64,000 nucleotides of DNA from Rhizobium sp. NFR03. GTDB lineage: Bacteria; Pseudomonadota; Alphaproteobacteria; Rhizobiales; Rhizobiaceae. Position 1 is the first letter of the stretch. The number at the start of each line of letters is the position of its first letter. Both the position numbers and the translations under genes were made by a program. The notes below the pieces were generated by a model. It had not been told where the DNA came from and ran no database searches. It saw only the letters and a program-made list of their open reading frames with translations. The stretch is from assembly GCF_900111275.1 (NCBI RefSeq), contig NZ_FOGR01000004.1, forward strand, positions 310,001 to 374,000, given 5' to 3'. Positions 1,868 to 23,180 of this stretch are shown here, piece after piece.

Positions 1868-1949
1868 CAGAACACTCCTCAGTTGTGATGACGCTCTGAT
1901 ATCGCCTGTTTTCGAGATGCGTCAGAGGCTTCGGTGTGCACTTGTCAAA

Positions 1950-1980
1950 CCTTACAAACTTTGCTTGTAATGTTGTAAGG
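1950..1980. promoter_or_regulatory. inverted repeat in the aceA/scfR divergent promoter (candidate operator)
   Basis: CCTTACAA (1950-1957) is mirrored by TTGTAAGG (1973-1980), and an inner TTGTAA (1965-1970) also pairs with TTACAA (1952-1957) across ACTTTGC. The centre read on the minus strand is GCAAAGTTTGTAA. From memory this resembles the AAAGTTTGCAA element bound by RamB in corynebacteria, whose targets include aceA. Binding by the adjacent regulator is an inference. Confidence 0.5.
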
Positions 1981-1993
1981 GTGGAGAAGCGTC

Positions 1994-3394
1994 GTGTCGG
2001 ACAAGCAGGGTGTGTATGTCGGCGCGCGCTTGAGACGGCTGCGGCGCAACCTCGGCCTGACACAGTCCGATATGGCCGCAGACCTTGAGATCTCGGCATC
2101 CTACATCGCCCTCATGGAGCGCAATCATCGGCCCGTGACGGCGGAGGTGCTGCTGCGGCTGGCCCGATCTTACAAGATCGACATGGCGGACCTTGCTGGC
2201 GATGGCGGCGCGGATCATTCCGCACGGCTGCAGACGGTGATGAAGGATCCGATCTTCGCCGATATCGACCTCTCCACCACCGAGATCTCGGAAGTGGCAA
2301 ACGGGTTTCCCGGCTTCAGCGAAGCTATGCTTCGGCTTTACACCGCCTATCGCGAGGAGCAGATCGCTCTTGCCGAACGCTTGCCGGATCAGGACGCCCA
2401 GAGACGGGAGACCGTCGATCCCGTGGCGGCGACGCGCCGGTTCCTTGCCGCCCGGCGAAACAGCTTTCCGATGCTCGATACGGTGGCCGAGAGACTGGCA
2501 GCAACCGTCAAGGACAAGGGCGGCATCGGCAATTATCTTTTGGAGCGGCACGGGCTTCGCATCCGCCGCCTCCCCTCGTCCATCATGTCGGACAGCCTGC
2601 GCCGGCACGATCTGCATCACAAGCAGATCCTGCTTGACGAGTCGCTGGATATGGCGAGCCAGCAGTTTCAGCTTGCTCAGCAACTCGCCTATCTCGAATT
2701 CGGCAAGGAGATTGCGGACGCCGTTCACGAGGGGAACTTCCAGACGGAAACGAGCTCCCGGCTCGCCCGCCGGTCGCTTGCCAGCTACGGCGCAGCAGCT
2801 CTGCTGATGCCCTACAGCGCGTTTGCCAAGGCGGTGGAAACGCGGCGATACGATCTGGCGGCCTTGTCGCGTCAGTTCACCACGAGTTTCGAGCAGACGG
2901 CCCATCGGCTGACGACGCTGCAAAAGCCGGGGCAGGAGCGCATCCCTTTCTTCTTCATCCGCCTGGATGCAGCCGGCAACGTGTCCAAGCGGCTCGATGG
3001 CGCGCATTTTCCCTTTTCCGCTTCGGGCGGCGGCTGCCCGCTCTGGAATGTCCATCAGGTCTTCCGCATGCCGGGCGAAATCGTGACGCAATGGCTGGAG
3101 TTTCCCGACGGGCAGCGCTTCTTCTCGATCGCCCGCACGGTCAGCGCCGGCGGCGGCGCCTATGGCGTCACGCGTGTTGATCGCGCCGTGGCGCTGGTTT
3201 GCGATGCGCAGCACGCCGATCGCCTGATCTACGTCCGGCCCGACAGCGACCGCACGCCGACGTTGGTCGGCATCGCCTGCCGCCTCTGCCAGCGCGCCAC
3301 CTGCACCTCGCGCGCCGAGCCCCCGATCGGCCGCCAGATCCTCATCGACGACTTCCGCCGCACGGCCGCACCGTTCGGTTTTGCGGATACGTGA
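1994..3394 (+). CDS. ScfR/RamB-type XRE-family regulator of short-chain acyl metabolism
   Basis: This 466-residue cytoplasmic transcription factor has an N-terminal XRE helix-turn-helix (about residues 10-65, LGLTQSDMAADLEIS and SYIALMERNHRPV), a central ImmA/IrrE-like domain and a C-terminal DUF2083-type domain with conserved cysteines (GGCPLW; CRLCQRATC). The zinc-protease HExxH motif expected in ImmA/IrrE is absent; the equivalent helix reads QQFQLAQQLAYLEF, so the domain is probably only a sensor. The start is GTG at 1994 after AAGGGTGGAG. Family members such as RamB and ScfR control aceA, malate synthase or propionate genes, and the divergent aceA supports that here. The effector is unknown, though an acyl-CoA is plausible. 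Confidence 0.85.
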   Translation: MSDKQGVYVGARLRRLRRNLGLTQSDMAADLEISASYIALMERNHRPVTAEVLLRLARSYKIDMADLAGDGGADHSARLQTVMKDPIFADIDLSTTEISEVANGFPGFSEAMLRLYTAYREEQIALAERLPDQDAQRRETVDPVAATRRFLAARRNSFPMLDTVAERLAATVKDKGGIGNYLLERHGLRIRRLPSSIMSDSLRRHDLHHKQILLDESLDMASQQFQLAQQLAYLEFGKEIADAVHEGNFQTETSSRLARRSLASYGAAALLMPYSAFAKAVETRRYDLAALSRQFTTSFEQTAHRLTTLQKPGQERIPFFFIRLDAAGNVSKRLDGAHFPFSASGGGCPLWNVHQVFRMPGEIVTQWLEFPDGQRFFSIARTVSAGGGAYGVTRVDRAVALVCDAQHADRLIYVRPDSDRTPTLVGIACRLCQRATCTSRAEPPIGRQILIDDFRRTAAPFGFADT

Positions 3395-5109: not shown

Positions 5110-5868
5110 CTATCGCACCATCCAGCCGCCATCGACAGGCAAGACTGTGCCCGTGACATAGGGAGAGCCGGGCGCTGCGAAGAAGAGGATCGCGGTGGCG
5201 AGGTCAGCGGGCATGCCCCATCGTGCGGCGGGAATGCGCGCCGAGATCTGGGCGTGCCGGTCGGGGTCGTTACGCAAGGCTTCGGTATTGTCGGTTTCCA
5301 TGTAGCCGGGTGCGATCGCGTTCACCGTAATGCCCTTCGGCGCGAGTTCGTTGGCCATGGCTTTGGTCAGGCCGGCGACACCGTGTTTGGAGGCGGCATA
5401 GGCCGGCACGCGCACGCCGCCCTGAAAACTGAGCATGGAGGCAATGTTCACGATACGGCCGGCGCGACCGGTCGCAATCATATGGCGTGCCGCTGCCTGC
5501 GAGAGGAGAAACACCGATTTGAGGTTGACGTCGATCACGGCGTCCCAATCTTCCTCCAGAACATCGACGATATCGGCGCGACGGATGATCCCGGCATTGT
5601 TGACGAGGATATCGACACCGCCCATGGCCGAAATAGCAGCGTCGAGAACGGCCTGCGCGTTGAATGGCTTGGAGAGATCGATCTGCTGTGCGTGAAACCG
5701 CCTGCCCGTCGCCTTGATCAGCCGCTCCGTATCCGGCATCGGCGAGGAGCCGATGGTAGCGACGTCGGCCCCGGCTTCCGCCAGCGCAAGGGCGAGACCC
5801 TGGCCGAGGCCGGTTCGTGCGCCGGTTACGAGCGCGGTCTTGCCGGTGAGGTCAAACAGATGTTTCAA
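5110..5868 (-). CDS. kduD: 2-deoxy-D-gluconate 3-dehydrogenase / 2,5-diketo-3-deoxygluconate reductase-type SDR
   Basis: This 252-residue classical short-chain dehydrogenase is expected to reduce 5-keto-3-deoxyuronate (product of KduI) to 2-keto-3-deoxygluconate with NAD(P)H. Visible motifs are the Rossmann TGARTGLGQG near the N-terminus, NNAG, and the catalytic S...YAASK; it ends DGGWMVR as KduD proteins do. I choose TTG at 5868 (LKHLFDLTGKTALVTG) because it begins at the usual place before the Rossmann fold; upstream in-frame ATGs lie deep inside the ABC ATPase gene. This gives a 17-bp overlap with that gene, consistent with translational coupling. It is the last gene of the leftward uronate operon. 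The substrate is inferred from context and resemblance to KduD. Confidence 0.85.
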   Translation of the reverse strand: MKHLFDLTGKTALVTGARTGLGQGLALALAEAGADVATIGSSPMPDTERLIKATGRRFHAQQIDLSKPFNAQAVLDAAISAMGGVDILVNNAGIIRRADIVDVLEEDWDAVIDVNLKSVFLLSQAAARHMIATGRAGRIVNIASMLSFQGGVRVPAYAASKHGVAGLTKAMANELAPKGITVNAIAPGYMETDNTEALRNDPDRHAQISARIPAARWGMPADLATAILFFAAPGSPYVTGTVLPVDGGWMVR

Positions 5869-6937
5869 GGCGAAGACCCTTTTCGTCAAAGAAGTGAAGC
5901 GGTGCGGCATCGAGCGAGAGGTCGATCTCCGAGCCCGGTGAGAAGCGGTGCTGGCCGGGCAGGACCACGAGAAGCTTTTGCCCGCCAAGCTCGGTGTGCA
6001 GAACAGTTTCCGAACCGAGCGCCTCGATCATGCGGACAGTCGCCCGCAGGGACCGGTTGCCCTTGCCGAGCGTGAGATGTTGCGGGCGAACACCGAGCGT
6101 CAAGGCTGCGCCTTGCTGTAGAACCTGCCGACCGGCATCGACCTCCAGCCGAGAACCGTCGGGTAGAGACAGCACGGCATGTCCGGGCCGGGCATTCTCT
6201 ACTGCGGCTTGCAGGAAGTTCATGTGCGGGGCGCCGATGAAGCCGGCGACGAAGCGATTTCCGGGTGTGTTGTAGAGTTCCAGAGGCGTGCCGACCTGCT
6301 CGATGCGTCCGGAACGGAGCACGACGATGCGATCGGCAAGCGTCATCGCCTCCACCTGATCATGGGTCACGTAGATCATCGTGGCTTTCAGCCGCGCATG
6401 AAGCGCTGCGAGTTCTGCACGGGTCGAGACGCGAAGTTCGGCGTCGAGGTTGGACAGAGGTTCGTCGAGCAGAAAGCCGACGGGGCTGCGAACGATAGCC
6501 CGGCCGATAGCGACGCGTTGGCGCTGGCCGCCGGAAAGCTGTCCGGGCCGACGCTTGAGATAAGGTTCGATTTCCAGCATCCGCGCTGCTTCCATGATCC
6601 GTTTGTCGATCTCCGCCTTGGGCATCCGCGCGTTCTCCAGACCGAAGGCGAGGTTCTGCCGCACGCTCATATGCGGGTAGAGCGCATAGGACTGAAAGAC
6701 CATGGCGAGACCGCGATCGGCTGCCGTCACGCTATTGACGTTGCGGCCATCGATCTCGATATCGCCGCTCGTAATTTTTTCCAGTCCGGCGATAGCCCGC
6801 AGGAGCGTGGATTTTCCGCAGCCGGACGGTCCGACGAAGACGACGAGCTCGCCGTCCCTGATGTCGAGGTCGATACCATGCAGCACGTCGATCGCGCCGA
6901 ACGACTTCTTGACATTGGAGAGTTTGATCTGGCCCAT
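5852..6937 (-). CDS. CUT1 sugar ABC transporter ATP-binding protein (UgpC/MalK type)
   Basis: This 361-residue ATPase energises the CUT1 importer encoded just upstream. It has Walker A GPSGCGKST, Q-loop MVFQSYALYPHMSV, signature LSGGQRQRVAIGRAIV, Walker B FLLDEPLSNLDA and the H-loop in THDQVEAM, followed by a C-terminal MalK-like regulatory OB-fold from about residue 235. The ATG is 10 bp downstream of the preceding permease stop. The operon also has KduI, KduD and GH105, so the cargo is most likely an unsaturated galacturonide or related uronate oligosaccharide (compare TogMNAB/AguEFG). That assignment is by context, not from the ATPase itself. Confidence 0.93.
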   Translation of the reverse strand: MGQIKLSNVKKSFGAIDVLHGIDLDIRDGELVVFVGPSGCGKSTLLRAIAGLEKITSGDIEIDGRNVNSVTAADRGLAMVFQSYALYPHMSVRQNLAFGLENARMPKAEIDKRIMEAARMLEIEPYLKRRPGQLSGGQRQRVAIGRAIVRSPVGFLLDEPLSNLDAELRVSTRAELAALHARLKATMIYVTHDQVEAMTLADRIVVLRSGRIEQVGTPLELYNTPGNRFVAGFIGAPHMNFLQAAVENARPGHAVLSLPDGSRLEVDAGRQVLQQGAALTLGVRPQHLTLGKGNRSLRATVRMIEALGSETVLHTELGGQKLLVVLPGQHRFSPGSEIDLSLDAAPLHFFDEKGLRLETSV

Positions 6938-6947
6938 TGGCGTTTCC

Positions 6948-8015
6948 TTACTTGAGCCCGGTGCCGGCTATGCCGGTGGTGATGAAGCGCTGCAGGAAGA
7001 TGAAGACGAGCACGACCGGGATCATGGTGACCACCGTCATGGCGAGGATAAAGTGCCACTGCACGTTCAGCTCGCCGGAATAGATGCTGAGGCCGACCTG
7101 AAGCGTATAAAGCTCCTTGCGTGACAGGACGATCAGCGGCCAGAGAAAGTCGTTCCAGCGCCAGACGACCGAAAAGATGGCGAGAACCGCAAGCGCCGGC
7201 GCCGTGAGCGGCAGGACGATGCGCCAGTAGATCTGCCATTCCGAGGCCTTGTCCATGCGCGCCGCATCCAGAAGCTCGTCCGGAATGGTCAGCATGTATT
7301 GCCGCAGGATGAAGACGCCCGTGGGCGTCGCCACGGTCGGCAAGATCACACCCCAGAGATTGTTGAACAGCCCGAGCGACGAGATGATCGAGTAGAGCGG
7401 TACCATGATGACGGACAGCGGCACCATCAGCGTCGCGAGAATGATGAGCATGGCGAAGCTGCGGCCCCGAAACTCGTATTTCGAGAGCGCGAAAGCCGCC
7501 ATGGAATTGACGACCAGCGTTATGACGGTCGCCATGACCGTGACGAAGACGGAATTCCACAGGTAGCGGAAGAAGTCGAAGTGGACGAACGGCTCGGTGT
7601 AGTTTTCGGTGGCGAAGGACAGTTTACGCACCGGCTGGCGGTCGTCGATATTGATGCGGACGGGCGGCGCGCCGGGGTCCGCGGGATCGATCATCTGGCT
7701 GAAAAGCCCGATCCGGCGGATCTCGGCCATGCGTTTCGTGGTGCCGTCCGGCATTTTCGCGTCGTAAAGCGTCAGCGGCTGTTCATGGCCGGCGACCGTG
7801 ACCTGCTGGCTGGCGTAGGGAAGAATGGAGGGTGGGAACTCGGCAAGTGCTGCCGGGGTCTTGAAGGACGAAAAGATCAGCCAGAGAGCGGGGCCGAACA
7901 TCACGATCAGCCCGCCGATCAGCCACAGCCATGTGACGATATCGGTCCAGTGCCACCCCCGGCCATGCTTCTGGCTACCCCTGCGGCGAAAAATGAAGCT
8001 TGCGGCGCGGCTCAT
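6948..8015 (-). CDS. CUT1 sugar ABC transporter permease (MalG/TogN-like)
   Basis: This 355-residue inner-membrane subunit has a first membrane segment at about residues 28-50, a periplasmic insertion of about 100 residues (to about 135), then five more segments. The EAA loop that contacts the ATPase reads EWQIYWRIVLPLTAPALA (an E-A-A...G variant without the canonical glycine). The large insertion after the first helix is typical of MalG-like rather than UgpE-like permeases. Its ATG overlaps the stop of the preceding permease by 4 bp, so the two are probably coupled. Confidence 0.92.
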   Translation of the reverse strand: MSRAASFIFRRRGSQKHGRGWHWTDIVTWLWLIGGLIVMFGPALWLIFSSFKTPAALAEFPPSILPYASQQVTVAGHEQPLTLYDAKMPDGTTKRMAEIRRIGLFSQMIDPADPGAPPVRINIDDRQPVRKLSFATENYTEPFVHFDFFRYLWNSVFVTVMATVITLVVNSMAAFALSKYEFRGRSFAMLIILATLMVPLSVIMVPLYSIISSLGLFNNLWGVILPTVATPTGVFILRQYMLTIPDELLDAARMDKASEWQIYWRIVLPLTAPALAVLAIFSVVWRWNDFLWPLIVLSRKELYTLQVGLSIYSGELNVQWHFILAMTVVTMIPVVLVFIFLQRFITTGIAGTGLK

Positions 8016-9046
8016 CTGCGTTTCCCCTTGTTCTCGCCACGCTTGCCGAGCCCGAGCTGTAACAGCGTCAGCACCACCAGCACGAGCCCCATCAGGATGG
8101 AAGCAGCGGCGGCAAGGCCTGGATTTCTCGGCTGCGAAACGAAGCCGGTTTCGTAGATGTACTGGGTCAAGAACAGCGTGCTCGTTCCCGGCCCGCCGCC
8201 CGTGAGAATGTAGACCTCGTCGAAAACCTGCACCGCACGGATGAGCGCGAGGACGATGACGACGATGAGGTTGGGCGCCAGCAGCGGCAGCGTGATGCGC
8301 CAGAAGACCCGCCCCGGCCGGGTGCCGTCCATGGCCGCCGCCTCGTAAAGATCCTTCGGGATGGCCTGAAGGCCTGCCAGCAGGATCAAGGTGTAGAAGC
8401 CCATATGCGCCCAGAGCGAAACGCCGACCGCAGCCATGAACGACCAGTCGCGATCCGTCAGCCAGTTGTAGGGCTCCATGCCGAAGGGGTAGAGAATGAA
8501 GTTCAGCAAACCCTGCCGCTGCAGGATCCAGCGCCAGATGAGGCCGACGACCACGGGCGACAACAGCACCGGGAAGAAGAAAACCGCCCGCCAGAAGGAC
8601 CGGGCGGCAAGATTACGGTTGAGGATCAGCGCAGTGACGAGCGCTGCGAGAATCATGAACGTGACCTGCAACACCACGAACCAGAAGGTGTTACCGACGG
8701 CAGTCCAGAAAGCGTCTTCCTGGCAGGTCAGGGCATCGAGATAGTTGCCGCAGTCGAACAGGCGCGCATACTGATCGCCGCCGACATAGGTGCGCTCCGG
8801 TAGGAAAAGTGCGGATCCGCCCGTCACGGAATAGACGACGTTGATGCCGAGCGGCAGGAGAACGAAGATCCCGAAGATCAGCATGTTCGGCGCAAGGAAA
8901 AACAGCGCCATGCCGCTGAGGCCGGTCAGTCTCTGCAAGGCGCGCATGGGTGCATCGATCAGCCCCATCACAACGCCGACAGGTGTCTTGACGATGGTGC
9001 CAAGACGCTCCGGCAGGGTTGGCTTGTCGGCGTTGGATACGGTCAC
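8012..9046 (-). CDS. CUT1 sugar ABC transporter permease (MalF/TogM-like)
   Basis: This 344-residue inner-membrane permease is the partner of the MalG-like subunit. Six hydrophobic segments follow an amphipathic N-terminus; the first is MALFFLAPNMLIFGIFVLLP at about residue 41. The EAA loop reads YEAAAMDGTRPGRVFWRITL. I place the start at GTG 9046 because AGGAGA lies eight bases upstream and an in-frame extension further upstream has low-complexity basic composition unlike the family. The gene follows the binding-protein gene by 79 bp and overlaps the next permease by 4 bp. Confidence 0.9.
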   Translation of the reverse strand: MTVSNADKPTLPERLGTIVKTPVGVVMGLIDAPMRALQRLTGLSGMALFFLAPNMLIFGIFVLLPLGINVVYSVTGGSALFLPERTYVGGDQYARLFDCGNYLDALTCQEDAFWTAVGNTFWFVVLQVTFMILAALVTALILNRNLAARSFWRAVFFFPVLLSPVVVGLIWRWILQRQGLLNFILYPFGMEPYNWLTDRDWSFMAAVGVSLWAHMGFYTLILLAGLQAIPKDLYEAAAMDGTRPGRVFWRITLPLLAPNLIVVIVLALIRAVQVFDEVYILTGGGPGTSTLFLTQYIYETGFVSQPRNPGLAAAASILMGLVLVVLTLLQLGLGKRGENKGKRR

Positions 9047-9125
9047 GGGTCTCTCCTGTGCGCCCTTTTGTGCCGGAGAGCCCGAGCATGCTGCCCCGGC
9101 CCTTCCCGTTTCTCGATGACGAGCG

Positions 9126-10400
9126 TCAGAGCGCGGAGTCCTTGACCTTGGACGCCACGTCGGCGTCGATCCGGGCGAACGCATCATCGACCGGCAATTC
9201 GCCGGCAATCGCCTGACCGATACGGGCAACCAGCGCGCCATAGACCGTATCGGACCAGCGCCACCCCGGCATCTTCAAGGCTTGTTCGGACGTCGTCTTG
9301 GTCGCGTTCACGAAGATGTCGAGGGCCGCCTTGACCTGAGGATCCTGCGTCTTGAAGGCCAGATCGCCCTTGTCGATCACGCCTTTGTGGGCGGGAATGA
9401 ACAGCGTGCGCTCGGAGAACTCCTTCACGACCGCTTCGCTCGCGAGGTAGTCCATCACCTTGGCGACGTCTTTCGGGTTCTTGGTGTACTTGATCGCCAC
9501 CAGCCCTGCGCCGCCCGGCATGCCGGTGCAGGAGGCCGGGCCGCAAGGGCTTCCCGTCGCAACCCAGTCGAAGCCGTTACCGATCTTGGTCGAGAAGTTC
9601 GGGACCTGCCAGGATCCGGAATAATAGAAGGCAAGCTGGGCGTTGATGAAGTCGTCCGCCGCGGCGCGATAGGTCTGACCGGCAGCAGAGACCCAGACAT
9701 CCTTGCTGATGGTGCCGTCCTCCGCCCATCCGACGAACTTGCCGATGAAGTCCTTGGCGCCCTTGTCGAGCGGCGCTGGCTTGCCATCCTCGCCGATATA
9801 GTTTGCGCCATAGGCAATGTTCGGCGCGGAGATGCGGTGGCCGGAGCGGTCGAGCGCCATGGCGAAGGGAATCTTCTGGCTTTCGGCGACTTTCCGTGAC
9901 GCCGCAGCCCAGTCGTCCCAGGTGGCGTCCTTACCCGGAAGATCGACACCCGCCTGCTCGAACAAGGTCTTGTTGGCGAAACCGCCCGTCAGCGTAATCT
10001 GCGTCATGAAGCCGGAGATCTGGTTCGAGCCGTCGGGGCGCATCCAGTCCGCCTGCGCGCCGAAGTTCGTGTCCCAGTAAGCCGCGTCGGCAACGAGAGG
10101 GCGCAGGTCCAGCCAGTGGCGACTGAGGTCCTTCAGCGCGGTCACGCGGGCGATGTCAGGCCCGTTGCCGGCTTCGAGTTGAATGGGCAACTGCTCCTTG
10201 ACGACACCATAGGCAACGTTGTCGATGATCACGTTGATGTCGGGGTTGTCGGCCTTGAAACGGCTGATCAGATCGGCGAGAACCTCGCCTTCGATCCCGT
10301 CCGAATACCACATGATCCGCACGTCGCCGGCGTGAGCGGCGGTCGAGGTTAAAAGGGCGAGCGTGGCGCCCGCCAGAAGCGATCTCAGTGTCATGCGCAT
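9126..10400 (-). CDS. CUT1 sugar ABC transporter periplasmic substrate-binding protein
   Basis: This 424-residue extracellular solute-binding protein (family 1) captures the sugar for the importer. ATG at 10400 follows AAGGAGG and gives a clear Sec signal peptide (MRMTLRSLLAGATLALL...AHA, cleavage about residue 23). The mature chain opens with DVRIMWYSDGIEGEVL, typical of the fold, and carries aromatic residues such as GWRWSD near the C-terminus that could stack on sugars. Its position directly after the 830-residue protein and KduI suggests an unsaturated uronate oligomer as ligand. Confidence 0.92.
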   Translation of the reverse strand: MRMTLRSLLAGATLALLTSTAAHAGDVRIMWYSDGIEGEVLADLISRFKADNPDINVIIDNVAYGVVKEQLPIQLEAGNGPDIARVTALKDLSRHWLDLRPLVADAAYWDTNFGAQADWMRPDGSNQISGFMTQITLTGGFANKTLFEQAGVDLPGKDATWDDWAAASRKVAESQKIPFAMALDRSGHRISAPNIAYGANYIGEDGKPAPLDKGAKDFIGKFVGWAEDGTISKDVWVSAAGQTYRAAADDFINAQLAFYYSGSWQVPNFSTKIGNGFDWVATGSPCGPASCTGMPGGAGLVAIKYTKNPKDVAKVMDYLASEAVVKEFSERTLFIPAHKGVIDKGDLAFKTQDPQVKAALDIFVNATKTTSEQALKMPGWRWSDTVYGALVARIGQAIAGELPVDDAFARIDADVASKVKDSAL

Positions 10401-10449: not shown

Positions 10450-12942
10450 CTAGGATGCGGTTTCGGATGAAAGCATCGTCGCCTCCCCCTTGACGGTATA
10501 GTCCGATCGGGCAAGGCGGCGGCCTTCCGCTTCGACGCTGCCGTCTGCATGAAAATGCACGGTGCCGTAATCGGGATCTTCGATCACAATGGTGCCGTCA
10601 CCCTCTTCGCTGGCTTCGAGCGCTGCAAATCTCGTCTCCACGGTCCTGAGATCTGCGGCACTGCTGACGCGCACGATCCATCGCGTTTTCGTACCGTACT
10701 GGCGAAGCTCAAGCCCGGCCGAGGGACCCTCGGTCACGGGAACGAGGGGCGAGGCCGCCTTCAGCATCACCGCGCCGGAGCCGGATCGCGCCAGAGCGAT
10801 GTGGCCGGAAACGGTGGATTCGTCGAACTCTGCGACGGGGAACCAGGCGTGCGTGAAGCCCGGTTGCTCCTCATTGACCGTGAACTCCAGAATGGCGAGA
10901 CCGCGATACTGCTGGGTGCGGGCAATCGTTCCGCAGCCGCCCCAGTAGGACGGGCGACCGTAGCCGAACTGGATCGTTTCACCGGGATGATTGATCCAGA
11001 TCGCGGCCTCGGGCGTCTCTCCGATGCGCAGATGCAGGATCGTCTCCTGATAGCCCCATTCGTTCCAGCGGTAATGCGCTGCGGAACCCATGGCGAAATC
11101 GGCGCTCTTGTAGTGGTAGAGCGCGGCGAAGGCGTTCTCGCCTTGCGCAAAGCGCCACTCCTGATGTTCCTCACGCCGATGGTTTGCGATGTCGGCCAGT
11201 TCTGGCGGTATGACCAGCCCGTGGTCGCGCAGGCAGACGGCGAGTTGCGGCAGAGCATGCACCCGTCGCCCATACCAGCCGCGGCCCCAGAGGAGACGGG
11301 CAACGCCCGAAAGCTCCAGCGAGCGTCCGGCGCACAGCGTGTGCTCGTAGGATCGCCCCTGAGCCGCGGTGACCATGCCGTGATGGGCGGAGCGGGCGAT
11401 GATCTCGCAGAGGCGCACGATGCCGGCCTTGGCGCGGTTTGCGATATCCTCGTGCGGTGAAAGCGCGGCCAGCGCCGTCAGCCCCTTGAGATCGATCGGG
11501 AAATACGGCGCCGAATTGAACTCAGCCATTTCCCAGTGTTCAAAATGATCGAGCCATGTGCGGACACGGGCAGCGCCGACGGCGCTCTGTTCCGCGCCTT
11601 TGCGGCCGGAGCGTGTAAAAGTCGCGTCCGGCAACAGCGCGCCACCCAGATAGGCACAGGTGTGAAAAAGCAGAGCGTGGTTCTCGGAGAAGTACCACTG
11701 CACGTCATTGCCCGGCTCGTCCATCCAGAAGCGGTAGTTGAGGATCGCGGCGTCGATACGGTCGCGAAGGCCCGCCTCGATATCGGCGCCCCAGACGGTT
11801 CGCGACCAGATCAGCGGCACGAGCGAGAAATCGGCGCAGTCGTGGCAATCCTCGATCGAGGGCAGGATCTCGGCGATCATGGCGTCAGTCTCCGCCCCGC
11901 CCCGACCGCTGGCAAGACGGGCAAAAGCGCGCACGGTGTCGCGTTCGGAGTCCTGCGAAATCGCGTCGAGTGTTTCCGTGATGCGGTCTTTCAGAGCAGC
12001 CGGTGCGTCGCCCTGCCGTTCGGCGTGGCAGATTTCGACGCCGAGCGAACGCGCCGCCACGAAGCCGCCGGCGTCGAGCGTGATGCGGAAGTGCCGGAAA
12101 TCGGCGGGCGCGCTTTCCGCCTGGCCGATCAGCAGCGTGGTTTCGCCGGCCTTCAGCTTGAAATCGAAGTCGAAGCGTTCGCGCGACATGAAATCGCCCT
12201 CGATGGCGACGTTCACATCGACATCCAGCGCGAGCGGTTCTGCCAGACACAAGGTGATGTCGCCGCCGAAATAGTGCGGGCGGTCGAGATGCATGCCGTC
12301 GAGAGCGGCCTCCAGGCTTTCGGCAACCACGCCCGGCACCGGAACAGGAACGCAGACACGGGCCGCCGGACCGGAGAGATAATCCATCTGATAGAAATAG
12401 CGGGCGTCGCGCTCGGCCAGATCGTCGAAGAACAGCGTGATCTCGTTACGGCCCTCGACCAGCGGCAAGGCGAAATCCTGTTTGACCTCCAGATTGCGGC
12501 TGTAGGGCGCCATCCAGCCGATTTCCTCGCCGTTCAGCCAGAGAACGGCGCCGCCGCAGGTGCCCAGCCGAATGCTCGCCATGCCCGCGACGTCTGCGTC
12601 GATGGTCGTTCTGGCCCATGTGGCAAGCCGGGTGGGCCGAAACCAGAAGCCGGAGAGATCGAGGCGCGGCGAGCCGAAAGGCAGCCACCAGCGCGTGCCG
12701 TCGAACGTACCGCGCACGTCTGGGCGCTTACCGCGATAGGTGTCAGCGAAGATGGTGCGGCAGGGATATTCATGCGGAATGAAGTTCTTGACCTTCGTCA
12801 GGAAGAAGAACGGATCCATCTCGCCCTTCATGGGCATGTCGGGAACGTCGAAACGCGCCTCTTCCGTCCTGCCGACCTGCCAGTAGCAAATGGCGGCACC
12901 CGGCTGAAGAGGCTTTTCAATCCAGTGGGTTTGCGTGCTCAT
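10450..12942 (-). CDS. uncharacterised 830-residue protein of the uronate operon, candidate carbohydrate-active enzyme
   Basis: I do not recognise this family. There is no signal peptide, so it is probably cytoplasmic. An N-terminal beta-rich part (to about residue 200) includes a galactose-binding-like stretch (GGAVLWLNGEEIGW) of the sort found ahead of rhamnosidases and GH2 enzymes. A helical middle (about 310-610) contains WYFSENHALLFHTCAYLGGAL and GRSYEHTLCAGRSLELSG, suggestive of an alpha/alpha toroid. A beta-sandwich-like C-terminal third begins with an aromatic-rich stretch (AHYRWNEWGYQET; PSYWGGCG). It overlaps kduI by 4 bp and sits 49 bp before the binding-protein gene, so it is co-transcribed with them. 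A lyase or hydrolase acting on imported unsaturated oligosaccharides is my inference; catalytic residues cannot be assigned. Confidence 0.85.
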   Translation of the reverse strand: MSTQTHWIEKPLQPGAAICYWQVGRTEEARFDVPDMPMKGEMDPFFFLTKVKNFIPHEYPCRTIFADTYRGKRPDVRGTFDGTRWWLPFGSPRLDLSGFWFRPTRLATWARTTIDADVAGMASIRLGTCGGAVLWLNGEEIGWMAPYSRNLEVKQDFALPLVEGRNEITLFFDDLAERDARYFYQMDYLSGPAARVCVPVPVPGVVAESLEAALDGMHLDRPHYFGGDITLCLAEPLALDVDVNVAIEGDFMSRERFDFDFKLKAGETTLLIGQAESAPADFRHFRITLDAGGFVAARSLGVEICHAERQGDAPAALKDRITETLDAISQDSERDTVRAFARLASGRGGAETDAMIAEILPSIEDCHDCADFSLVPLIWSRTVWGADIEAGLRDRIDAAILNYRFWMDEPGNDVQWYFSENHALLFHTCAYLGGALLPDATFTRSGRKGAEQSAVGAARVRTWLDHFEHWEMAEFNSAPYFPIDLKGLTALAALSPHEDIANRAKAGIVRLCEIIARSAHHGMVTAAQGRSYEHTLCAGRSLELSGVARLLWGRGWYGRRVHALPQLAVCLRDHGLVIPPELADIANHRREEHQEWRFAQGENAFAALYHYKSADFAMGSAAHYRWNEWGYQETILHLRIGETPEAAIWINHPGETIQFGYGRPSYWGGCGTIARTQQYRGLAILEFTVNEEQPGFTHAWFPVAEFDESTVSGHIALARSGSGAVMLKAASPLVPVTEGPSAGLELRQYGTKTRWIVRVSSAADLRTVETRFAALEASEEGDGTIVIEDPDYGTVHFHADGSVEAEGRRLARSDYTVKGEATMLSSETAS

Positions 12943-13775
12943 TTCAGATCCGCCAGTGCTACGGGGGAGACGTCGTTATATTCCTGATTTTCACCGGTCA
13001 TGCCCCAGACGAAGGCATAGGGACCCGTCCCCGCGCCCATATGAATGGACCAGGCGGGCGAGATGAGCGCCTGAAGATCGGCCACCACGAGATGGCGTGT
13101 TTCTTCCGGGCGGCCCATCAGGTGAATGACGCGGTCTTCAGGTGCAAGGTCGAAATAGCAGTAAGCCTCCATCCGCCGCTCGTGGAGATGCGGCGGCATG
13201 GTGTTCCAGACGCTGCCTTCGGCAAGATCCGTTATGCCCATGAGCAGCAGGCAGGATGGCGATACTTCCGGATGGATATACATCCTGAGCTGCCGCACAT
13301 TGGAGCGCTTTGCATCGCCAAGCGAAAGCAGCTTGGAGTCCGCGGCCCTGATCAGCCGGTGCGGCAGATCCGCACCCGCCGGAACCGAATTCATATAGAA
13401 GCGGGCCGGAGCATTCGGATCGCGACTTGCGACGACGATCTCGCGCGCGCCGCGCCCGATATAGAGCACGTCGCGATTATCGAGCGCGAAGCTCTCGCCG
13501 TCGACGGAGATCGTGCCGGAGCCGCCGAGATTGGCAACGCCCATTTCCCGCGCCGACAGGAGAAACGGCGTGCCGATCTCCTCGCCGGCGCCGAAGGCGA
13601 TCGGTTCACCGGTGGGAACCGCGCCGCCGACGATCAGGCGATCGACATGCGTGTAGGTCAACTGCATCTTGCCCGGCTGGAACAGGTCTTCCATCAGGAA
13701 CTCCGCCCGCAGCCGCGCGGTATCGTAGCTCTTCGTATCGGTTGGACCGGCTCCGTAGAGAATGTTCATCGTCAT
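12939..13775 (-). CDS. kduI: 5-dehydro-4-deoxy-D-glucuronate isomerase (4-deoxy-L-threo-5-hexosulose-uronate ketol-isomerase)
   Basis: This 278-residue cupin-like isomerase converts 4-deoxy-L-threo-5-hexosulose uronate, released from unsaturated uronides, to 3-deoxy-D-glycero-2,5-hexodiulosonate. Candidate zinc ligands are visible at His196 and His198 (PPHLHERRMEAY), Glu203 and His245, the same numbers I recall for Escherichia coli KduI, and the length matches. It overlaps the GH105 gene upstream and the 830-residue gene downstream by 4 bp each, indicating tight co-translation. The product is the substrate of KduD at the end of the operon. Confidence 0.97.
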   Translation of the reverse strand: MTMNILYGAGPTDTKSYDTARLRAEFLMEDLFQPGKMQLTYTHVDRLIVGGAVPTGEPIAFGAGEEIGTPFLLSAREMGVANLGGSGTISVDGESFALDNRDVLYIGRGAREIVVASRDPNAPARFYMNSVPAGADLPHRLIRAADSKLLSLGDAKRSNVRQLRMYIHPEVSPSCLLLMGITDLAEGSVWNTMPPHLHERRMEAYCYFDLAPEDRVIHLMGRPEETRHLVVADLQALISPAWSIHMGAGTGPYAFVWGMTGENQEYNDVSPVALADLK

Positions 13776-14872
13776 GACGTCTGGTCTCCGGTTTCGACGT
13801 GCCGCAGTGCCTCGGACAGGCAGAGAATGGCGAGCGCCTGCCCGTATCCCGTCGGCTGGATGGGAATATCCCGGTAAAATTGAAGGTCGTGGCCCATGCG
13901 GGTTCCGTAGGACACGTTGAGCACGGTGCCGCTCTCGTCGATATTGTCGAGGACCGCCTGCACCGCCCGCAGGCCGGCCTCCTTCCAGCCCGGCGTACCC
14001 AGTCCCAGTCGGTAGCCCTTGAGAAGGCCGTAGCCGATGCCGGCCGTGGCGGAGATCTCCTCATAGGAGCCTTCATCGTCGAGCAGCGTCCGCCAGGCGC
14101 CCGACCGCGCCTGCAACGGCAGGAGGGCATTCACCTGCGCAACGAGCACACCGAGCAGATACGTCTTCACCGGCTGCGGCATCTCGGCGAGATCGAAAAG
14201 GTCCAGCATGCCGGCCGTGATCCAGGCATTGCCCCGCGCCCAGCGTGCCTCCGCGAAGTTATGCCGTCCGTCGAACGTCCATCCATGGAACCAGAGCCCG
14301 GTTTTGGTGTCGGCGAGGTAGCGGGTGTGGACGAGAAATTGAAGGGCCGCCTCATCGGTCAGCTCCTTGCGGCCGCTTGCCTGTCCGTAGGAGGCAAGGA
14401 ACAAGGCGACCATGTAGAGCGTGTCGTCCCAGAGTTCGTTGTCGTTGACCTTATCGGAAACGTGATGCTCGAAGGCGCCTTCGGACGTCCGGCCCATTTC
14501 GGCAATCACGCGGCTTGCCCATTCGTCCAGCGGCTTTTCCCAGCGCGGATCGCGAGTCTCGTTCCAGAGCACGGAAAGCCCCAACATGGGCGCCGTGGTG
14601 TTGACGTTGAGAAGGGGCAGACCGGCAGCGAGCCGCTTTTCATACCATCCTTCGATGAGAAGCTTGAGATCGTCGCGGCCCGTGAACTGCCAGAGACGGA
14701 CGAGACCGTAAAGCCCGACGCCCTGCGGCCATTCCCAGCTGTCGAACGAGATGTAATCGCCAGCCGTGCCATCCAGGTTCGGCTCATCGAAGCGACCGTC
14801 GTGGCGCAGGCCGGTCATGCCCGCAACGATCAGGTCGAGCTTCGCACGGATCTCTCCTGCGGATAGCAGCAT
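13772..14872 (-). CDS. GH105/GH88-type unsaturated glucuronyl or rhamnogalacturonyl hydrolase
   Basis: This 366-residue (alpha/alpha)6-barrel enzyme is expected to remove the 4,5-unsaturated uronic acid from the non-reducing end of lyase-generated oligosaccharides by a hydration mechanism. Family features include SFDSWEWPQGVGLYG near residue 42, NDNELWDDTLYMV at 143-155 with the likely catalytic Asp at 149 or 150 (YteR uses Asp143), and ARWARGNAWITAG. ATG at 14872 follows GAGGAG; a longer frame upstream runs into the promoter. No signal peptide is present, so it acts in the cytoplasm after import. It is the first gene of the operon and divergent from the LacI regulator. Confidence 0.9.
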   Translation of the reverse strand: MLLSAGEIRAKLDLIVAGMTGLRHDGRFDEPNLDGTAGDYISFDSWEWPQGVGLYGLVRLWQFTGRDDLKLLIEGWYEKRLAAGLPLLNVNTTAPMLGLSVLWNETRDPRWEKPLDEWASRVIAEMGRTSEGAFEHHVSDKVNDNELWDDTLYMVALFLASYGQASGRKELTDEAALQFLVHTRYLADTKTGLWFHGWTFDGRHNFAEARWARGNAWITAGMLDLFDLAEMPQPVKTYLLGVLVAQVNALLPLQARSGAWRTLLDDEGSYEEISATAGIGYGLLKGYRLGLGTPGWKEAGLRAVQAVLDNIDESGTVLNVSYGTRMGHDLQFYRDIPIQPTGYGQALAILCLSEALRHVETGDQTS

Positions 14873-14955
14873 GGTGTTGTCTCCTCTCCCCCGGACGGTT
14901 TGGAACCGACCGGCCGTTCCGCTTCTCCCGAGCGGTGAGCTGATGAAATCACTCT

Positions 14956-14968
14956 CGCAAAGTTTGCG
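14956..14968. promoter_or_regulatory. candidate LacI-family operator between the GH105 and regulator genes
   Basis: CGCAAAGTTTGCG is a perfect 13-bp inverted repeat about a central G. It lies in the 143-bp divergent intergenic region, 84 bp from the GH105 start and 48 bp from the regulator start. Odd-centred palindromes of this size suit LacI-type dimers. Binding is inferred from position and symmetry. Confidence 0.5.
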
Positions 14969-15015
14969 CAATCTGAAAATTTTTTGCAGTATGCGGTCTC
15001 AAGGAGAACGCGCTC

Positions 15016-16098
15016 ATGGCTATATCGCCCCTGCCCGGTAAACGCGGAACCAGAAGCCGCCGTGTGCGGCTTGAGGATATCGCCGAAAAGGTAGGCGTCT
15101 CGCTCAGCACTGTTTCGCGCGCGCTATCCGGCGAAAAGGGCGTGCGCGCCGACATCCGCGAGCGCATTCTGGAGGCGGCGAGAACGGCGAATTACGTGGT
15201 CCCGACACCGATTGCTGGCAAGAAGGTCATTCTCGCGGCATCGAGTGCGGCGATGATCGACTATGTCCGCAACCAGTTCACGCTGTACGTTCTGGAAGGA
15301 CTGCGCGACCGGGCACAGGCACTTGGTCTGGAAATCGTCACGCGGTCGGTAGCCGGCCAGGCCGAGGAAAGAACGATGCTGGACGAGGCCGCAGCCGATC
15401 CGGATGTGCTGGGCCTTCTCTTCCTCACCGTCGATGACGAAGCCATGCTTGCCGCCACCCGCGCATTTGCCAAGCCTGTCGTGATGATCAACGGGGACGA
15501 TCCGCTGATGCGCCTGTCAAGCGTAACGCCGTGCAATCGCTCCGCAGCGCGACTTGCCGCCGAGCACCTGATTGGTCTCGGTCACGAACGCATTCTCTTC
15601 CTGATGCGGCCCGGCCGCCATACGATCGAGCGCCGTCGCGAAGGTTGGCGTGATGCGTTCCTTCACAGAAACCTTGCCTGTCCGGATGATCTCGTGGTGC
15701 TCGTGGACGACTGGCTCCCCAATCTCGCAGCCCAAGCTATCGCGGCGCGCATCAGGGAGAATGGGCTGGACTTCTCCGCAATTCTCGCGGCCGGGGACAG
15801 TCTTGCCGTTGGCGCCATGACAGGCCTTCAGGAACAAGGCTACTCGGTACCTGCGGATGTCTCCGTCATGGGCATAGACGATCTGCCCCAGGCAGCATTC
15901 GTCCATCCGCCGTTGACGACCATGCATATTCCCATGCGCGAACTCGGCTCCGTCGCGCTCGACCTCCTGCGCGACAGTATTACAGGCTCCCCCATGCCCG
16001 CCCGGCGGATCGAACTGGCCTGCCATCTCGTCGAACGCGCATCCGTGACAGGCAGGACATCTGTTTCCACTTCGTCGCTCGGCTCTCGCCGCGTCTAG
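15016..16098 (+). CDS. LacI-family regulator of the uronate operon
   Basis: This 360-residue transcription factor has the LacI helix-turn-helix at about residues 17-65 (LEDIAEKVGVSLSTVSRALS) and a periplasmic-binding-like effector domain from about 70. ATG at 15016 follows AAGGAG. The arrangement, head-to-head with GH105-KduI-ABC-KduD, implies that it controls that operon and itself, probably as a repressor released by a uronate intermediate. The hinge helix lacks the usual LAxxL pattern (TANYVVPTPIAGKK), as in several rhizobial LacI members. The effector is unknown. Confidence 0.9.
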   Translation: MAISPLPGKRGTRSRRVRLEDIAEKVGVSLSTVSRALSGEKGVRADIRERILEAARTANYVVPTPIAGKKVILAASSAAMIDYVRNQFTLYVLEGLRDRAQALGLEIVTRSVAGQAEERTMLDEAAADPDVLGLLFLTVDDEAMLAATRAFAKPVVMINGDDPLMRLSSVTPCNRSAARLAAEHLIGLGHERILFLMRPGRHTIERRREGWRDAFLHRNLACPDDLVVLVDDWLPNLAAQAIAARIRENGLDFSAILAAGDSLAVGAMTGLQEQGYSVPADVSVMGIDDLPQAAFVHPPLTTMHIPMRELGSVALDLLRDSITGSPMPARRIELACHLVERASVTGRTSVSTSSLGSRRV

Positions 16099-19250: not shown

Positions 19251-20414
19251 TTACTCGGCGAGTTCGCGCATGACCTTGATCAGGTCAGACTTGCCTTCGA
19301 AGCCGATACCCGGCAGTTCCGGCATGGTGATGTGGCCGTCGATGACCTTGACGCCGTCCGGAAAGCCGCCATAGGGCTGGAACAGATCGGGATAGCTCTC
19401 ATTCCCGCCGAGCCCGAGGCCGGCAGCGATGTTGAGGGACATCTGGTGACCGCCGTGCGGGATGCAGCGCGACGGCGACCAGCCGAACTGGCGCAAGACA
19501 TCCAGAGTGCGCAGGTATTCGACGAGACCGTAGGACAGGGCGCAGTCGAACTGCAGGAAGTCGCGGTCAGGCCGCATGCCGCCGTAGCGCAGCAGGTTGC
19601 GGGCGTCCTGGTGCGAGAACAGGTTTTCGCCTGTGGCCATCGGGCCATCGTAGAATTCCGAAATCGCGGCCTGAAGCGCGTAGTCCAGCGGATCGCCGAT
19701 TTCCTCGTACCAGAAGAGCGGATAATCGCGCAGCATCTTGGCGTAGGCGATACCAGTTTCCAGGTCGAAGCGGCCGTTCGCGTCCACCGCGAGCTTTGCC
19801 TCGGACCCGATTTCCTCCAGTACGGACTCGATCCGGCCTCGGTCTTCATCGACAGAAGCGCCGCCGATCTTCATCTTCACGACATTGTAGCCGCGGTCGA
19901 GGTAGCCGCGCATTTCCTTGCGGAGCGCGCTGTTGTCCTTGCCGGGATAGTAGTAGCCGCCGGCGGCGTAGACGAAGACCTTCGGGTTGGCTTCCCGGCC
20001 CTTCATGTCGGCGAGATGGCGGAACAGCGGCTTGCCCTCGATCTTGGCGACGGCATCCCAGATCGCCATGTCGATGGTGCCGACGGCGACCGAGCGCTCG
20101 CCGTGACCGCCGGGCTTCTCGTTCATCATCATCTTCGCCCAGATCTTGTGCGGGTCGAGATTTGTGCCGGCGTCGTTGATCAGTTCTGCCGGGTCTGCTT
20201 CGAGAATACGGTCCTTGAACCGCTCGCGGATCAGGCCGCCCTGACCATACCGGCCGTTCGAATTGAAGCCGTAGCCGACGACGCGCCGGCCGTCCTTCAC
20301 GACATCCGTCACGACGGCGACAAGGCTCGCCGTCATCTTCGAGAAGTCGATATAGGCGTTGCGGATGGGCGAAGCGATGGGCTTTGTGACTTCGCAGACG
20401 TCGATGATACGCAT
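19251..20414 (-). CDS. tarD: D-tartrate dehydratase (enolase superfamily)
   Basis: This 387-residue enzyme dehydrates D-tartrate to oxaloacetate. The enolase-superfamily groups are visible: KMK at 180-182, metal ligands Asp211, Glu237 and Glu263, and His320 in CIPHGGHQMSLNIAAG. These correspond with a constant two-residue offset to Lys184, Asp213, Glu239, Glu265 and His322 that I recall for Bradyrhizobium TarD. The flanking DctA, tartrate dehydrogenase and TctABC genes agree. ATG 20414 follows GGAGA. Other dehydratases of the mandelate racemase subgroup are less likely given the full residue match. Confidence 0.9.
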   Translation of the reverse strand: MRIIDVCEVTKPIASPIRNAYIDFSKMTASLVAVVTDVVKDGRRVVGYGFNSNGRYGQGGLIRERFKDRILEADPAELINDAGTNLDPHKIWAKMMMNEKPGGHGERSVAVGTIDMAIWDAVAKIEGKPLFRHLADMKGREANPKVFVYAAGGYYYPGKDNSALRKEMRGYLDRGYNVVKMKIGGASVDEDRGRIESVLEEIGSEAKLAVDANGRFDLETGIAYAKMLRDYPLFWYEEIGDPLDYALQAAISEFYDGPMATGENLFSHQDARNLLRYGGMRPDRDFLQFDCALSYGLVEYLRTLDVLRQFGWSPSRCIPHGGHQMSLNIAAGLGLGGNESYPDLFQPYGGFPDGVKVIDGHITMPELPGIGFEGKSDLIKVMRELAE

Positions 20415-20478
20415 TGTAATCTCCGGTTCAGGTTAAAGACGGTGTTCGGTAATGGGCAGGCAAGGCTGGAACGGCAAG

Positions 20479-21786
20479 CTAGTGCGTCGCCTCGTGTGCG
20501 ACAGCCGTGATACGGCGAGGGATCTCTCCGCGTTGTTCGGCGATGACGGCTTCGACGGTCTCCCGATCGAGCGCGCCTTCCCATTTGGCGATGGCGATGG
20601 TCGCCACGCCGTTGCCGATGAGATTAACGACCGCCCGCGCCTCGTTCATGAAGCGATCGACGCCGAGCAGCAGCACGAGGCCGGCAATTGGAATGGCGTG
20701 GAAGCTCGAAAGCGTGGCGGCAAGCGTCACGAAGCCAGCGCCCGCAACGCCGGCCGAGCCCTTCGACGTCAGCAGGAGAACGCCGAGGATGAGCAACTGG
20801 CCCTCGATGCCGAGCGGCGTGTTGGTGGCCTGTGCGACGAAGACGGCGGCCATTGTCAGGTAGATGCAGGTCCCGTCGGCATTGAACGTGTACCCTGTGG
20901 GCAGGACCAGACCGACGACCGACTTCTTGCAGCCGAGGCGCTCGAGCTTCGTCATCATGCGCGGCAGCACGGCTTCCGAGGAGCAGGTGGCAAGGACGAT
21001 CAGGATCTCGTCCTTGAAGTAGCGGAAGAAATGCAGCAGCGGAAAGCCCGACCAGCGCGCGACCGTGCCGAGAACGAAGACGACGAACAGCGCCGAGGTC
21101 AGGTAGACGGCGAGCATCAGGTGGCCCAGCGACCAGAGCGTGCCGATGCCGTGTTTGCCGATGGTGTAGGCGACGCCGGCGCCGGCACCGATGGGCGCAA
21201 GCCGCATCACCATTCCGACGATGCGGAACAGGGCCAGGAGAAACGCATCGAGCACATCGACGACAGGCTTGCCGCGCTCGCCGATCTGCACGAGGGCGAT
21301 ACCGACCAGCACGGCCAGAAGAATGACCTGCAGCATCGCGCCCTTGGCGAAAGCGTCCACCATCGTGGTCGGGATGATGTTCATCACGAACTCGACGAAG
21401 CCGCCCTGCGTCTGCGCGGTCTGCTGGTATTGGGAGATCGCGCCGGCATCGAGCGTGCTGGCGTCGATGTTCATGCCAACGCCCGGCTGCATGATATTGA
21501 CGACGATCAGGCCGAGCACGAGAGCTATGGTCGAGACGACCTCGAAATAGAGCAGCGCGAGAGCGCCGGTCTTGCCGACCTCCTTGATATCGCCCATCTT
21601 GGCGATGCCGAGCACTACCGTCGCGAAGATAACGGGCGCCAGAAGCATCTTGATGAGTTTGATGAAGCCATCCGCAAGCGGCTGGAGCTTCGTGGCCACG
21701 TCCGGGAATGCAAGCCCTACCGCGATGCCGATGGCGATCCCGATGAGAACCTGTACATATAGCTGACCTAGCAACCTTCGTGCCAT
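20479..21786 (-). CDS. dctA: C4-dicarboxylate/proton (sodium) symporter
   Basis: This 435-residue inner-membrane carrier of the DAACS family imports C4-dicarboxylates. Family hallmarks are the serine-rich reentrant loop (ATCSSEAVLPRMM), the substrate/cation loop TGYTFNADGTCIYLTMA, and GSAGVAGAGFVTLAATL in the second hairpin. ATG 21786 follows AGGAGGAGG. It lies 64 bp upstream of tarD, so a tartrate or malate uptake role is likely. No -24/-12 sigma-54 promoter like that of rhizobial dctA under DctBD control is apparent; instead a motif shared with the tctC/LysR intergenic region lies upstream. Confidence 0.93.
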   Translation of the reverse strand: MARRLLGQLYVQVLIGIAIGIAVGLAFPDVATKLQPLADGFIKLIKMLLAPVIFATVVLGIAKMGDIKEVGKTGALALLYFEVVSTIALVLGLIVVNIMQPGVGMNIDASTLDAGAISQYQQTAQTQGGFVEFVMNIIPTTMVDAFAKGAMLQVILLAVLVGIALVQIGERGKPVVDVLDAFLLALFRIVGMVMRLAPIGAGAGVAYTIGKHGIGTLWSLGHLMLAVYLTSALFVVFVLGTVARWSGFPLLHFFRYFKDEILIVLATCSSEAVLPRMMTKLERLGCKKSVVGLVLPTGYTFNADGTCIYLTMAAVFVAQATNTPLGIEGQLLILGVLLLTSKGSAGVAGAGFVTLAATLSSFHAIPIAGLVLLLGVDRFMNEARAVVNLIGNGVATIAIAKWEGALDRETVEAVIAEQRGEIPRRITAVAHEATH

Positions 21787-21900
21787 GGCGACCTCCTCCT
21801 GGATATTCTTTGCTGACCTCCGCAGCGCAGCGCCGGACCAGCCGGCTGAGGTCGAAATTATCGGAAGGCGGCGCAAATCCCCAATGCCTAAATGATTTGT

Positions 21901-21923
21901 ATTGATGCCATTTCGGCACTAAT
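21901..21923. promoter_or_regulatory. candidate LysR-type binding site upstream of dctA
   Basis: ATTGATGCCATTTCGGCACTAAT is an imperfect inverted repeat (ATTGATGCC / GGCACTAAT) containing the core ATGCCATTTCGGC. The same core with one change is in the tctC/LysR divergent region at 26244-26256. Its position 115-137 bp upstream of dctA suits an activator site. Confidence 0.45.
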
Positions 21924-22079
21924 ATTCGGACTTTCCCTGTTGAAGTGGGTCGCCTTCACGGCAAAAAGGATTTACTTTTCATGGTTATGCCCGCTGCCGC
22001 TTTGCATCGCGGCTAGCATGCGATGCCGATCCGGCTTCAAGGTGCACCGCGCAGGCAGATGGCCCGCGCGGGTTGGCAC

Positions 22080-23168: not shown

Positions 23169-23180
23169 GCTCCAATTCAA

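Follow-up and report, generated by a model that had tools for sequence, protein, structure and literature searches.

X830, an unnamed protein with a predicted polysaccharide-lyase-type fold in a rhizobial uronate operon, as a candidate source of the unsaturated ends hydrolysed by GH105

The DNA considered here, a stretch of 64,000 nucleotides from Rhizobium sp. NFR03 (contig NZ_FOGR01000004.1 of assembly GCF_900111275.1; hereafter the window, with positions counted from its first letter), contains an otherwise ordinary uronate operon in which one gene encodes an unnamed protein of 830 residues, X830 (10450..12942, minus strand, ATG start). The gene order on the minus strand is GH105, KduI, X830, solute-binding protein, two permeases, ATPase and KduD. 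The GH105-type unsaturated uronyl hydrolase (13772..14872) matches Pfam family GH88 (6.4e-81) and has GH105 relatives in the PDB (3qwt, 1.5e-91; 3pmm; 4xuv); the ATG at 14872 is its likely start, the listed frame (13772-14971) beginning at TTG 14971. NCBIfam names this frame beta-galactosidase BglB (537 bits, cut-off 420), which may be misleading, since the Pfam family and the operon fit an unsaturated uronyl hydrolase; the GH154 structure 8oi4 also carries beta-galactosidase in its title, and no paper among those listed in a literature search plainly accounts for the name. KduI, 5-dehydro-4-deoxy-D-glucuronate isomerase (12939..13775; PRK00924, 374.7 bits, cut-off 250), lies between the hydrolase and X830. 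After X830 come, by Pfam, the components of an ATP-binding cassette (ABC) importer: an extracellular solute-binding protein of the SBP_bac_1 type (9126..10400, likely start ATG 10400), two permeases (8012..9241, start uncertain, and 6948..8015) and an ATPase with a TOBE domain (5852..6937). KduD, 2-dehydro-3-deoxy-D-gluconate 5-dehydrogenase, closes the series (5110..5856, start approximate; TIGR01832, 370 bits, cut-off 338.85), and a LacI-type regulator (Pfam) diverges from it on the plus strand (15016..16098). X830 and kduI share 4 bp in an ATGA junction, GH105 and kduI overlap in the same way, and the plus-strand reading of 10450-12942 is interrupted by stops. A promoter scan performed no better than chance, and a terminator scan found none. 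An initial annotation, which did not state the strand, had described the frame, the 4 bp overlap and the importer genes that follow; all of these are present, and the frame is borne out by its many near-full-length relatives.

These relatives were collected by scanning one genome per species and keeping the best 80 of 93. The best 80 are 58-82% identical to X830, each aligned over nearly the whole length, and from their titles we take nearly all of them to be Rhizobiales or Rhodobacterales. Together with long invariant motifs, the 93 relatives (the best 80 near full length) show that X830 is not a chance reading frame. More distant relatives were drawn from plasmid records and further genomes, and include a rhizobial paralogue clade (29-30%), a protein from another class of the same phylum (locus L086, 29%), one from Catenovulum (26%) and, outside the phylum, proteins from Subdoligranulum (Bacillota, 30%) and the archaeon Haladaptatus (26%). 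The latter is shorter and has no N-terminal beta domains; a reciprocal search from it recovers the same proteins, with E-values down to 2e-24. X is nevertheless uncommon, being found at 12 places in 9 of the 398 genomes of a phylum sample. Sequence searches gave no name for it. X830 had no significant match in Pfam (best BetaGal_gal-bd, E 0.16, residues 108-147), none in NCBIfam at E<=1 (X830 alone, relatives left out) and no relative among PDB sequences (best E 0.27); relatives down to 26% identity, including those of Subdoligranulum (L134), Haladaptatus (L094) and L086, likewise gave nothing in Pfam. Neither the PF10022 (DUF2264/GH154) profile nor any Pfam glycoside hydrolase profile scored above cut-off in X830 or its relatives, and profile searches of PDB sequences with the X-family alignments A1, A3 and A4 yielded no worthwhile match (none at E<=0.3 with A4). 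With hhalign, the X family (n=22) showed nothing significant against DUF2264 (8 sequences), heparinase-like PF07940 (30) or a GH105 control (9), of which the control scored best; with Neff of about 3 to 5, this is weak evidence of absence. No literature on X itself was found, in a search mostly without subscription journals. By these sequence criteria X is a real, conserved and unnamed family that Pfam and PDB sequences do not recognise (nor, for X830 itself, NCBIfam), but that may already carry a CAZy number.

Structure prediction was more informative. The AlphaFold model of X830 is confident and consists of a GH2-type, galactose-binding-like jelly roll (residues 13-192; 12367..12906, minus), a second beta domain to which DSSP of the model assigns strands but no fold was given (about 225-304; 12031..12270), an alpha/alpha toroid (307-586; 11185..12024) with the invariant groups E420-N421-H422, E474/S477/Y480 and G529-R530-x-Y532, and an antiparallel beta-sandwich (590-830; 10453..11175) with invariant Q632, W667 and H698. 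This agrees with the domain sketch of the initial annotation, a beta-rich N-terminus followed by a helical toroid and a beta-sandwich-like end, and, as it also stated, no signal peptide is seen at the N-terminus (judged by eye only). The Foldseek list of the full-length model is headed by GH2 chains, mainly via residues 13-192, and was set aside for the catalytic part because the jelly roll drives these matches. X830 as a GH2 enzyme was rejected, the jelly roll being followed in the models by a helical toroid instead of a TIM-barrel. When residues 306-830 were searched alone, each of the 23 chains at E<=1e-3 was either a polysaccharide lyase of the toroid type or dermatan sulfate epimerase (TM 0.48 or less), with human dermatan sulfate epimerase 1 on top (6hzn, 2.6e-7). 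This part of the protein is thus predicted to have the toroid/beta-sandwich fold of polysaccharide lyases (PL8/12/15/17/21/35/39). The earlier statement that X830 fits no known family therefore holds for its sequence, but not for the fold of residues 306-830.

The genes around X were compared at the 80 close loci, with flanks of at most 8 kb, by tblastn with the window proteins (1e-10, more than half of the query). A LacI regulator is found at 79 loci, GH105 at 78, KduI at 77, the solute-binding protein at 78, the two permeases at 77 each and the ATPase at 77. KduD occurs at only 29 of the 80, and the L070 copy matches at 32% and lies on the opposite strand. The close loci without GH105 are L049, which begins at X at a contig edge, and L055 of Rhizobium johnstonii 3841. 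In the phylum sample, 10 of the 12 X places, the window included, have GH105 in the same cluster, no more than about 6 kb away; the two others, L158 and L159, are in genomes of the window's family. At the genome level, GH88 is present in 37 of 398 genomes, including all 9 with X (p = 2e-10, uncorrected for kinship), and the sole GH88/105 gene of the NFR03 genome is the neighbour of X830. Among the named distant and plasmid relatives, GH105 is in the cluster for five of six (L091, L092, L093, L095, L134), whereas none is present among 21 annotated features around X of Haladaptatus (L094). The transporter beside X varies: next to ABC systems, tripartite ATP-independent periplasmic (TRAP) transporters are found at L093, L149 and L150 and a major facilitator superfamily protein at L091. 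The plasmid record of Subdoligranulum (L134, 9038-18088) has a full-length X with GH105 directly after it and a second GH105 downstream, in a region for which the record lists no features. Homologues thus occur mainly with uronate genes and not away from them. The claim that X830 must function with GH105, KduI and KduD is too strong in view of the KduD counts and of L055, L158 and L159, where GH105 and KduI are not present.

Conservation was analysed over 18 sequences, drawn from Pseudomonadota, Bacillota and one archaeon, the others being 26-82% identical to X830. Residues invariant in all 18 include D368, D371, W406, D408, W416, E420, N421, H422, F426, H427, E474, S477, Y480, D484, G529, R530, Y532, Q632, P653, W667 and H698; R320 is present in 17, with a gap in the archaeon. 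The polar residues E420, N421, H422, Y480, R530, Y532 and Q632, located in loops and at helix starts, are thus invariant throughout, a pattern typical of an active site. Some spacings roughly resemble those of lyases: H422 and Y480 are 58 positions apart, much like H202-Y257 in HepII and H202-Y258 in Alg17c (residues named in the mutant titles of PDB entries); Y480-Q632 spans 152 positions versus 155 for Y232-H387 in BcPL35, and R320-Y480 160 versus 156 for R76-Y232. The X motifs E-N-H, A-P-Y-F-P-I and G-R-S-Y also echo N-N-W, H-Y-x-P-F and G-R-S-x-T-Y of DUF2264, whose active-site residues are taken from PMC12269599. Since profile comparison supports homology neither to lyases nor to DUF2264, the roles proposed below for residues of X are ones that we infer.

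The substrates of GH105 enzymes carry, at their non-reducing end, a uronyl residue that is 4,5-unsaturated, and on this the enzymes act (PMC8511951). Because GH105 requires this end, some enzyme must make it. The NFR03 genome has no PL1, PL22 or PL8 gene (lyase families beyond these and PF07940 were not searched for) and no DUF2264 (PF10022) match at 1e-6. PF07940 is represented in it by one gene, which is on a different contig and immediately precedes a reading frame that we take to be purH-like. PL8 was tried as close kin of X and discarded: PF02278 was found in 1 of 249 phylum genomes, the NFR03 genome not included. We consider it probable that X830 is a cytoplasmic beta-elimination enzyme that makes the unsaturated uronyl end for GH105. 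The importer would deliver an oligosaccharide or disaccharide to X830 in the cytoplasm, where the enzyme would take the proton from C5 of a uronosyl residue while the C4 substituent is expelled; the uronyl residue would thereby become 4,5-unsaturated, with the aglycone sugar still attached. GH105 would hydrolyse off the unsaturated residue to give 5-dehydro-4-deoxyuronate, and KduI and KduD would convert this to 2-keto-3-deoxygluconate. Judged from conservation and spacing, the carboxylate may be surrounded by N421/H422 and R530, Y480 and/or Y532 may serve as base and acid, and Q632 may be contributed by the beta-sandwich; the N-terminal jelly roll could narrow the cleft to an exo pocket. The slot between uptake and GH105, assigned to the protein earlier, is supported. 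The proposed task of trimming oligosaccharides that are already unsaturated is less likely, since a lyase-type enzyme would itself make the unsaturated end and, of the lyase families searched for, PL1, PL22 and PL8 are absent from the genome.

The expelled group could be water, making X830 a dehydratase like GH154; this is a tentative, slightly preferred option. Members of the GH154/DUF2264 family are reported to make saturated ends ready for GH88 (PMC12269599). DUF2264 holds the place beside importer and GH88 in L133, a sister operon from a rhizobium, and the orders KduI-GH88-DUF2264 and GH88-DUF2264 occur in Asticcacaulis and Halorhabdus, respectively; one DUF2264 protein from such operons matches a solved glucuronate dehydratase. 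With a lyase fold and the same operon slot as DUF2264, X is best read as doing the job of GH154. Should a uronyl disaccharide be what is imported, to which the TRAP variants hint, only dehydration would still provide GH105 with a glycoside. Alternatively, and somewhat doubtfully, a cap sugar at O4 is expelled and X830 acts as an exo-lyase, which would fit import of a capped trisaccharide.

Several known enzymes offer comparison. The PL35 glycosaminoglycan lyases (BcPL35, 9o3q; GAGase II/VII, 8khv/8khw) and PL12/15/17/21/8/39 share the toroid and antiparallel beta-sandwich with X, and their toroid His, Tyr and beta-sandwich position are similarly spaced. They have no detectable sequence relation to X, in which Gln stands where the spacing would place the His of the beta-sandwich; the extra jelly roll and second beta domain belong to X only, and no signal peptide is seen in it. 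The GH154/DUF2264 dehydratases (9o4u, 9nwf, 8oi4) resemble X in gene location near GH88/GH105, except at L055, L158, L159, L094 and L049 (contig edge), but X has no PF10022 match or profile similarity and the N-terminal beta domains are its own. Both kinds stand side by side at L153 (608-18524), where an ATPase-YesL-DUF2264-KduI group adjoins a SBP-X-GH105-GH28-ABC-LacI group, a natural setting for comparing two presumed routes to unsaturated ends. PL27 is presumably represented among PDB entries, and X matches no PDB chain at E<=0.3 (alignment A4). The PL27 L-rhamnose-alpha-1,4-D-glucuronate lyases combine a beta-sandwich with an (alpha/alpha)6 barrel and desaturate glucuronic acid (PMC8377490), but in them an N-terminal beta-sandwich precedes the barrel. 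The role proposed for X, making an unsaturated end for GH105, is that of the ulvan oligosaccharide dehydratase P29_PDnc, for which D248, K303 and R230, the last also given as R300, are described as the residues used (PMC8511951).

Other explanations for X830 can be envisaged. It could be a toroid glycoside hydrolase, for instance a GH78-like alpha-L-rhamnosidase that strips neutral sugars from imported oligosaccharides before or after GH105 acts, which corresponds to the trimming proposed in the initial annotation. GH78 enzymes have the domain order beta-sandwich, alpha/alpha toroid, beta-sandwich, the full model matches GH78 structure 3w5n (7e-7, prob 1.00, TM 0.19), and the X loci of clade II (L092, L152, L153, L154) contain GH28. 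On the other hand, the domain-only search ranks lyase folds (about 1e-7) above the first hydrolase, a GH81 (8e-3), no GH profile scores above cut-off, the beta-sandwich of X830 (about 240 residues) is larger than that of GH78, and GH78 chains are absent among the best 50 Foldseek and best 50 VIA matches listed for residues 306-830, although this does not exclude GH78. We regard a hydrolase as unlikely. A uronyl C5-epimerase, which would abstract and return the proton and leave the epimer to another enzyme, is suggested by the top position of dermatan sulfate epimerase 1 in the Foldseek list; this is just one among several lyase-fold matches of similar standing, and the usual neighbour GH105 needs an unsaturated residue, not an epimer, which makes such an activity very improbable.

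The remaining alternative, that the operon carries X830 as a lyase-fold protein that binds or regulates or has degenerated, and not as the enzyme of this step, draws on observations that also weigh against beta-elimination by X830. No activity is on record for X, and the position that by spacing is His in the beta-sandwich of lyases is Gln (Q632). A further point against beta-elimination is that Pfam, PDB sequences and hhalign revealed no relation in sequence to lyases. Furthermore, L055, L158 and L159 read LacI-X-SBP-permeases-ATPase (the contig of L159 ends just past LacI), so that X is kept only with regulator and importer. The genomes of these three loci each carry GH88 elsewhere. The arrangement would suit a scheme in which X is the first to act on the incoming sugar and GH105 comes from another place, but it is also compatible with a product that is no substrate for GH105. 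The invariance of E420, N421, H422, Y480, R530, Y532 and Q632 down to 26% identity speaks against a non-enzymatic protein, which we find quite unlikely. Overall, the observation of the initial annotation is confirmed and its interpretation partly supported.

Elsewhere in the window, the minus-strand region 19251-24689 is likely a tartrate/C4-dicarboxylate cluster, with tartrate dehydrogenase (TIGR02089, 585 bits), DctA (607 bits) and, by eye (no NCBIfam match at 1e-30), an enolase-superfamily-like dehydratase and a TctA-like membrane protein. At 275-3394, isocitrate lyase (PRK06498, 1047 bits) is divergent from a RamB-like regulator, whose score of 376 bits falls short of the cut-off (700).

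It is conceivable, though still speculative, that the X family represents a further route, unrelated in sequence to GH154 and P29_PDnc, to intracellular GH105 substrates. Its members would be dehydratases of oligosaccharide uronates, or cap lyases, built on the toroid/beta-sandwich fold and lidded by a GH2-like jelly roll; they are present in Pseudomonadota and Bacillota, with a shorter relative in one haloarchaeon. GH88/GH105 hydrolases are used to predict the use of pectin, ulvan or glycosaminoglycans, even though their unsaturated substrate must come from elsewhere. If beta-elimination by X830 is correct, an unclassified family would be added to the lyase fold and the pathway would become predictable wherever X adjoins GH105. 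It would also test whether dehydration is a widespread means of uronate removal, as the GH154 work proposes (PMC12269599), and a conserved unnamed gene would explain how rhizobia and others use uronate oligosaccharides that are saturated on arrival.
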